A stretch of 64,000 bases of DNA from Candidatus Woesearchaeota archaeon (lineage in GTDB: Archaea; Nanobdellota; Nanobdellia; Woesearchaeales; GW2011-AR15). A model generated the notes under the pieces. The model was not told where the DNA came from and made no database searches. It worked only from the letters and a program-made list of their open reading frames with translations. Positions 51,011-51,504 of this stretch are shown one piece after another. The stretch's first letter is position 1; each line of letters starts with the position of its first letter. Both the position numbers and the translations under genes were made by a program. The stretch covers positions 1-64,000 of the forward strand of contig JAFGJW010000015.1 in NCBI GenBank assembly GCA_016928835.1, in the 5' to 3' direction.

Positions 51011-51020
51011 GTTTAAATAT
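51011..51020 (+). promoter_or_regulatory. TATA box of the tRNA-Leu(CAA) gene
   Basis: GTTTAAATAT, about 26-35 bases before the tRNA 5' end and directly after the stop of the coiled-coil gene. Confidence 0.55.
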
Positions 51021-51045: not shown

Positions 51046-51331
51046 GCGGGCGTGCCGGAGAACTCACTGAAGTTCGTTCTCCTACAAACTTCATTTGTCC
51101 GGAGTGGCCAATTGAAAGTCGGAGATTTTCAAAGCACTAAGGAATCAAAGATTCCTGGTGTCTAAAAAACCGGAAGTTTTTTAGGACGTCTGAAAACTCC
51201 GTTTTCGGACCAAACGGGATAGACTCAAGGCATTTGAGTGCTGAGTGTTGCAATCCTGCAATTCAATGAAGAGTCAATGTAAGTCATCTATTGGCTTAGT
51301 GCCTACGCAGGTTCAAGTCCTGTCGCCCGCA
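51046..51331 (+). tRNA. tRNA-Leu (anticodon CAA) with three apparent introns
   Basis: The gene spans 286 bases but folds to an 84-base class II tRNA when three segments are removed. The acceptor stem is GCGGGCG/CGCCCGC with discriminator A; the T-arm is GCAGG TTCAAGT CCTGT; the variable arm is TGGCTTAGTGCCTAC; the anticodon arm is ATAGA CTCAAGA TCTAT. Intron 1 (44 bases, about 51055-51098; boundary ambiguous within the repeated CCGGAG) is in the D-stem. Intron 2 (102 bases, about 51111-51212; slides by up to four bases) is in the D-loop. Intron 3 (56 bases, 51230-51285) is at the canonical position 37/38. The mature D-arm would be CCG GAGTGGCCAAA CGG. Splice junctions and bulge-helix-bulge folds were not modelled. 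Confidence 0.85.
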
Positions 51332-51380: not shown

Positions 51381-51504
51381 GCGGAGTTGGCGGAGTGGCC
51401 AAACGTGGCAGCTTCAGGCAGCGGAAAACTTCATTTCCTAGGTTTTCTTGTTGGAAACAGCTGTTCCCTTAGTGGGTGCGCAGGTTCGAATCCTGCACTC
51501 CGCA
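51381..51504 (+). tRNA. tRNA-Leu (anticodon CAG) with one canonical intron
   Basis: A 124-base gene. Acceptor GCGGAGT/ACTCCGC with discriminator A, D-arm GCG GAGTGGCCAAA CGT, anticodon stem GCAGC/GCTGT, loop TTCAGG then A, variable arm TCCCTTAGTGGGTGC, and T-arm GCAGG TTCGAAT CCTGC. Removing a 40-base intron at 51419-51458, between positions 37 and 38, leaves 84 bases. Anticodon CAG reads CUG leucine codons. It lies 49 bases after tRNA-Leu(CAA) and shares the D-loop GAGTGGCCAAA, consistent with a tandem duplication of a leucine tRNA. Confidence 0.92.

Follow-up and report, generated by a model that had tools for sequence, protein, structure and literature searches.

A probable tRNA-Leu(CAA) gene with three bulge-helix-bulge introns, one of them guide-like, in a Woesearchaeota-type genome

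Archaeal tRNA genes with several introns are known from the Thermoproteales, the Thaumarchaeota and the Asgard archaea (PMC8450103, PMC11291895). A first-pass annotation of the locus described here had noted that multiple non-canonical introns occur in the Thermoproteales, in agreement with published descriptions (PMC8450103, PMC4090602). For Woesearchaeota, no report of multi-intron tRNA genes was found in the searchable literature, subscription papers lying outside that search. Introns with relaxed bulge-helix-bulge (BHB) motifs are efficiently removed by (alpha beta)2 and epsilon2 endonucleases only (review PMC6379350; also PMC12397907). Cleavage of relaxed motifs has been linked mostly to a lysine-bearing loop, and specificity loops are stated to have co-evolved with intron diversity (PMC6379350, PMC12397907). 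A tRNA intron may also carry a function of its own, since the archaeal pre-tRNA-Trp intron directs, as a box C/D RNA, the formation of Cm34 and Um39 (cited in PMC7994747), and free C/D sRNAs of Pyrococcus have C34 of tRNA-Leu(CAA) as a predicted target (PMC7994747, PMC7668247).

The window (the whole stretch of DNA analysed, 64,000 nt) very probably contains a three-intron tRNA-Leu(CAA) gene at positions 51046-51331 of the forward strand, on which all features given below also lie. Removal of 44, 102 and 56 nt leaves an 84-nt product that ARAGORN recognised as tRNA-Leu(CAA), with 7/7 acceptor pairs and with all tRNA pairs and invariant bases intact; the arithmetic of the first-pass annotation, which had proposed these same lengths, was right. 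The unspliced gene received no call from ARAGORN and no Rfam match on the raw window. Exon 1 (GCGGGCGTGCCGGAG, 51046-51060) supplies tRNA positions 1-15, as delimited by its BHB register and by uninterrupted orthologues, and is followed by intron 1 (44 nt, site 15/16, 51061-51104), assigned by register scoring and by the same intron at other loci. Exon 2 (TGGCCAA, 51105-51111) is the part of the D-loop with G18 and G19, on which the ARAGORN product, the BHB register and a blind solver agreed. Intron 2 (102 nt, site 21/22, 51112-51213) was placed by its BHB register and by shorter introns at the same site in relatives. Exon 3 (ACGGGATAGACTCAAG, 51214-51229) covers positions 22-37 with the anticodon CAA, as read from the ARAGORN product and the BHB register. 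Intron 3 (56 nt, 51230-51285) occupies the canonical 37/38 site, as judged from its BHB register and from homologous introns across the order, and exon 4 (51286-51331, from the ARAGORN product) comprises positions 38-73, i.e., the 3' arm of the anticodon, the variable arm, the T-arm, the acceptor strand and discriminator A. About 30 bp upstream of the tRNA 5' end, the sequence has a putative archaeal TATA element (TTTAAATA, 51012-51019), and similar A/T-rich elements precede many orthologues. A tRNA-Leu(CAG) gene (51381-51504) with one canonical 40-nt intron (51419-51458) lies 49 bp downstream. The host genome (1.53 Mb, 95% complete) was searched for a second, intact tRNA-Leu(CAA) gene, a check proposed with the original annotation, and none was found.

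To locate the splice junctions, registers were scored for the BHB motif, defined as a helix of 4 bp that pairs the end of the exon with the end of the intron, bulges of 3 nt with the cut behind their second nucleotide, and an adjoining intronic helix. All three introns have two 3-nt bulges which, when cut after the second nucleotide, give the intact tRNA; the motif that had been anticipated at every junction, the D-arm included, is thus present at each. Because CCGGAG repeats flank intron 1, its position is ambiguous by sequence; of the eight registers scored, a single one forms a BHB (score 5.0, reached by 0.15% of random sites). Its helix H pairs CCGG of the exon with CCGG of the intron (4/4 pairs, self-complementary), with bulges AG|A and AG|U. 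Since this sole BHB-forming register lies at 15/16, intron 1 was assigned to the D-loop. The proposal of one intron each in the D-stem, the D-loop and the 37/38 site therefore stands for two D-arm introns and one canonical intron but not for the D-stem, where no register gives a BHB. Intron 2 scored 3.85 (about 1% of random sites were as good), its H helix being GGCC/GACC with 3/4 pairs and bulges AA|U and AA|A, and intron 3 scored 3.25 (about 2%), with H helix CTCA/TAAG, again 3/4 pairs, and bulges AG|G and UC|A. Two of the three H helices of the gene thus carry a C.A mismatch. An outer exon helix h, read from sequence, is provided by the anticodon stem at 37/38 and is absent at 15/16 and 21/22; because of this absence, the two D-loop introns are relaxed HBh' motifs. 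The reading of both as a single large D-arm intron was rejected, as G18-G19 and the D-loop exon sit between the two inserts.

The best answer of the blind solver was the same set of three introns, and one of 96 dinucleotide shuffles scored as high as the real gene. Since shuffles can match it, the solver score is insufficient as proof and remains an argument at the level of ~1%. The comparative evidence is decisive for the layout, structure by itself offering that ~1% argument. Two orthologues (L038 and L048) contain, without interruption, the sequence TGCCGGAGTGGCCAAACGGGATAGACTCAAG reconstructed here for the D-arm and the 5' anticodon arm, and 40 of 100 orthologous loci are free of interruption in the part tested. 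Other genomes, too, have BHB introns at 15/16 and 21/22, cut in the same geometry. In the 21/22 introns of relatives the H helix is kept via C20-G or U20-A, being mismatch-free in 9 of 14 genes and carrying one mismatch in the other 5. An extra intron at 30/31, with a mismatch-free BHB, is present in 26 of the 100 orthologues, and the relatives have the 21/22 and 30/31 sites in common.

These data bear on three other accounts of the locus. A different layout, with other registers or with the D-arm pieces removed in another manner, could appeal to the second-best answer of the solver, in which intron 2 is shifted in register (101 nt) at a nearly equal score, and to the possibility of reading intron 1 as 22 + 22 nt nested. 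However, the uninterrupted orthologues read GTGGCCAAACGGG, as the main layout predicts, while the alternative intron 2 register gives a D-loop unlike theirs; together with the recurrence of the 15/16 and 21/22 introns in the same cut geometry, this makes a different layout unlikely. The gene could also have decayed, through the insertion of palindromes, into a pseudogene that is spliced no more; the two mismatched H helices fit such decay, as does the resemblance of the intron 2 insertions to palindromes outside tRNAs and in unrelated genomes. We consider decay very unlikely, though, considering that the tRNA pairs and invariant bases are intact, the exons are identical to those of orthologues, the BHB motifs are clean, intron 3 is conserved over many genera and no other tRNA-Leu(CAA) was found. 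Finally, one or more of the inserts might be introns of the self-splicing (group I) or homing-endonuclease kind, given that Woesearchaeota rRNA is known to contain group I introns (PMC6125680) and that a LAGLIDADG ORF lies at another Leu locus in this genome. Inserts of 44-102 nt that contain no ORF, fit BHB motifs and match no Rfam family up to E = 1, the group I core included, render this account extremely improbable. The reading that we prefer, with a probability of about 0.8, is a functional tRNA-Leu(CAA) gene with three BHB introns, the third of them guide-like, its splicing and methylation being predicted from sequence. Against this reading, tRNA-Leu(UAA), itself a multi-intron gene, could decode UUG, in which case tRNA-Leu(CAA) need not be essential.

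Intron 1 may itself be composite. An inner 22-nt segment (51063-51084), probably a nested intron, has H helix GGAG/CTCC and bulges AA|C and UA|C. Without it, the outer intron is 22 nt long, its BHB is perfect and its intronic helix has 5 bp (ACAAA/TTTGT); the register score rises from 5.0 to 6.5. Five copies share this layout. Three are Leu loci of this genome, i.e., the present gene, tRNA-Leu(GAG) and a tRNA-Leu half-gene, and the layout is also found in G093 and G080, from two distant families. Among the copies the intronic helix varies while pairing is kept (ACAAA/TTTGT, ACACA/TGTGT, ACACG/TGTGT). G032 (L255) has a simpler 15/16 intron, in which a hairpin directly adjoins this CCGG helix, and so does tRNA-Leu(GAG) of G001 (L061), where there is one mismatch. 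An intron within an intron is thus a plausible reading that we hold in even balance, and under it the inner segment would probably be removed first, after which the outer BHB could form.

Separately, mini-hairpins that repeat the acceptor strand (e.g., GCGGGG...hairpin...CCCCGC), sometimes in tandem, flank some tRNA genes of the order. They were seen upstream of tRNA-Leu at L040, L043, L049, L202, L242, L272, L282 and L286 and downstream at L050. A spacer like TCACTNACGTTC is common to these flanking hairpins and also occurs within intron 1. As a general feature, the upstream acceptor-stem mini-hairpin was rejected, a strict test finding it at 3 of 77 loci (control, 0).

Intron 2 consists of four hairpins in series. 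The loop of the first (TTGAAAGTCGGAGATTTTCAA, 51112-51132), CGGAG, is complementary to the loop of the last, CTCCG (CTGAAAACTCCGTTTTCGG, 51190-51208), which adjoins the BHB strand GACC at 51208-51211. The same two hairpins, first and last, make up the entire 21/22 intron of G024 and, in G016, a T-loop intron; the middle two seem to have been inserted later. The hairpin TGAAARTCGGAGAYTTTCAA was considered as a mobile element specific to tRNA introns and discarded, exact matches having been found outside tRNAs in Methanolliviera, Chryseobacterium and clostridia. The Methanolliviera loci (L093, L113 and others) have dense palindromes in which the cores ATCGGAGAT or ATCTTCGAT recur, and the hairpin of these palindromes occurs in several bacteria too.

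Intron 3 differs from the other two in its conservation, with identity of 80-91% across several genera. A covariance model of it (R1) matched 186 of the 287 genomes of the order and, in a class-level draw, 61 of 187 genomes, other families of the class included. The first-pass annotation had treated it as a canonical intron, which is correct for the site but passed over a conserved kink-turn and a segment complementary to the anticodon. In alignments of 18 and then 100 orthologues, a hairpin is closed by a kink-turn made of box D' (nUGA), a 3-nt bulge and the GA of box C'. In the present gene these correspond to a box D'-like CTGA (51241-51244; alignments A1 and A2), a covarying hairpin that would form the C-stem of the kink-turn (51245-51264), in which 7/7 pairs change on both sides, and a 3-nt bulge followed by a box C'-like AUGAAGA with tandem G.A pairs to D' (51265-51272). 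The pair D'1-C'6 was C-G in 25 cases, U-A in 20, A-U in 15 and G-C in 8. The structure score in 100 orthologues was 0.358; shuffles gave 0.138 and slid structures no more than 0.097. Alignment A2 was fitted to the model and leans towards the structure, and A1, aligned by sequence only, gave the same result. We are therefore highly confident that intron 3 contains a conserved kink-turn of the box C'/D' type.

The segment TTTGAGT (51233-51239) lies just upstream of this kink-turn, and the fifth nucleotide before box D' faces C34. UUGAG, the complement of anticodon-loop bases 32-36, stands 2 nt before box D', and the pattern UUGAG + 2 nt + nnGA was found in 81 of 100 orthologues. Shuffled 5' segments gave 0.5 on average and 4 at most, and other exon 5-mers gave 0-2. 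The fixed 2-nt spacing (81/100) puts C34 at D'+5, the position methylated by box C/D guides. Since the target is invariant, guide-target pairing cannot covary. The guide is absent in the relatives G006 and G024, and the intron itself in G045 and G057. That intron 3 encodes a guide for Cm34 of its own tRNA seems the better-favoured interpretation of the sequence data, held with modest confidence. Such a guide would direct 2'-O-methylation of C34, acting either in cis on the unspliced transcript or, once excised, in trans. The kink-turn might instead be real and serve no methylation, binding L7Ae for another purpose such as folding or RNase P recruitment, while the role of UUGAG is confined to shaping the anticodon region of the pre-tRNA. 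For this there speak the single C'/D'-like pair of intron 3, versus the usual archaeal C/D plus C'/D' (no second conserved box C/D pair was seen by eye in the alignment), and the fact that UUGAG could mask the anticodon. Against it, the spacing to D' is held at 2 nt in 81 of 100, with exactly C34 at D'+5, and C34 of this tRNA is also the predicted target of the Pyrococcus sRNAs (PMC7994747, PMC7668247). We regard a kink-turn without guide function as a tenable minority reading and retain the Cm34 guide as the working interpretation.

Non-canonical introns are not peculiar to tRNA-Leu(CAA) and were found in many tRNA genes of the genome and of the order. In this genome, D-loop introns also interrupt Leu(GAG), Gly(TCC) and Lys(CTT), a serine-like gene (L082, G000 C8 near 146283) has three introns, and T-loop introns occur in about a dozen genes, mostly at 59/60, a helix UUCR/YGAA following base 57 in most of them. 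In the serine-like gene, one insert comes right after the 5' acceptor strand and the others lie in the anticodon and variable regions. The tRNA-Leu(UAA) gene (L081, G000 C8 near 45731) apparently has three inserts, in the D-loop, the anticodon loop and the T-arm, although the solver parse was unclean. At one further locus (L057, G000 C9:65300-67600; also L303), a LAGLIDADG homing-endonuclease ORF comes after a tRNA-Leu 5' half that contains intron 1. The 3' end of this ORF runs into a second, uninterrupted copy of the 5' half and the rest of a tRNA-Leu(UAG-like), which has further inserts in the anticodon region, the variable arm and the T-loop. The arrangement looks like a homing element that brings its own intact exon. 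Only nine Rfam matches were above cut-off in the whole genome; in genomes like this one, many tRNA genes escape the standard finders.

The first-pass annotation had argued that removal of D-arm introns needs a broad-specificity endonuclease and that the endonuclease type should be checked. Both D-arm motifs are indeed relaxed, but the enzyme found is not of a kind expected to be broad. The genome encodes one EndA of 191 aa, alpha-type, with one N-terminal and one catalytic domain; the single PF01974 match and the single PF02778 match fall in the same 191-aa ORF. A single PF01974 gene was likewise present in 39 of 40 genomes. No beta or second EndA subunit was detected by domain search of the genome, and a missed beta of the N. 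equitans type is unlikely, since this alpha subunit matches that beta at E = 1.2e-11, yet the genome yielded a single gene. The closest solved sequences are N. equitans alpha (PDB 3iey_A, E 1.7e-36) and M. jannaschii EndA. In Sulfolobus, Aeropyrum and Pyrobaculum the catalytic alpha subunit has ~10 extra residues in the N-terminal domain, and in PDB alignments, on which the loop conclusion rests (the S. tokodaii query being taken from an alignment), the crenarchaeal Lys-bearing loop insertion (CSL) is absent from this EndA and from 19 relatives; the ASL was compared through the 4fz2 alignment. This alpha enzyme either has a wider specificity than expected or receives help from another factor. 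The T-loop and 37/38 introns, which have an outer exon helix, could suit a narrow enzyme. One RtcB ligase is present in the genome. The EndA gene (L059, G000 C8:297500-301500) adjoins an RNase Z-like ORF and shares one base with an ORF of 299 aa that looks nuclease-like, possibly forming a tRNA-processing cluster.

Taken together, the primary transcript would be cut by EndA and its exons joined by RtcB. The 37/38 intron may be old and retained because of its kink-turn and anticodon-complementary guide, and the two D-loop introns may be young and sporadic, probably mobile insertions. The full proposal, an ancient, class-wide C'/D' guide at 37/38 for the tRNA's own C34, joined by younger, partly nested D-loop introns that are all removed by a loop-less, alpha-only endonuclease, is one that we put forward tentatively, at slightly less than even confidence. 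If true, it would run counter to the accepted rule by which an (alpha beta)2 or epsilon2 enzyme is required for relaxed BHB introns. Since the order pairs many relaxed introns with a single loop-less alpha gene, that rule can be put to the test with a single small protein. In turn, the intron of tRNA-Leu(CAA) would offer a concrete reason for intron retention, as an apparent guide RNA for modification of its own anticodon. The locus thus holds two testable surprises, a loop-less single alpha endonuclease and a conserved, guide-like canonical intron.

Among described systems, the Thermoproteales are similar in having as many as three introns in a gene, BHB motifs and sites in the D- and T-loops (20/21 and 59/60, for example), and in needing to remove close introns stepwise (PMC8450103, tRNAscan-SE 2.0; PMC4090602). 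However, they possess (alpha beta)2 endonucleases with the crenarchaeal loop, whereas here a Woesearchaeota-type genome has one loop-less alpha gene. The N. equitans alpha subunit is closest to this EndA, but N. equitans has a beta subunit as well, and none was found here. In the Asgard Atabeyarchaeia and Freyarchaeia, most tRNA genes are likewise interrupted, many by several non-canonical introns (PMC11291895); they belong to a different phylum, and the accessible part of the report describes no intron-borne guide. The archaeal pre-tRNA-Trp intron resembles intron 3 in its 37/38 site, its C/D-type elements and its anticodon-complementary guide for C34, yet here the host is tRNA-Leu(CAA), one kink-turn pair is recognised and the guide lies at the D' position. 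The free-standing C/D sRNA of Pyrococcus shares the same predicted target nucleotide but is encoded by a separate gene (PMC7994747), whereas the corresponding guide-like element of tRNA-Leu(CAA) lies within an intron.
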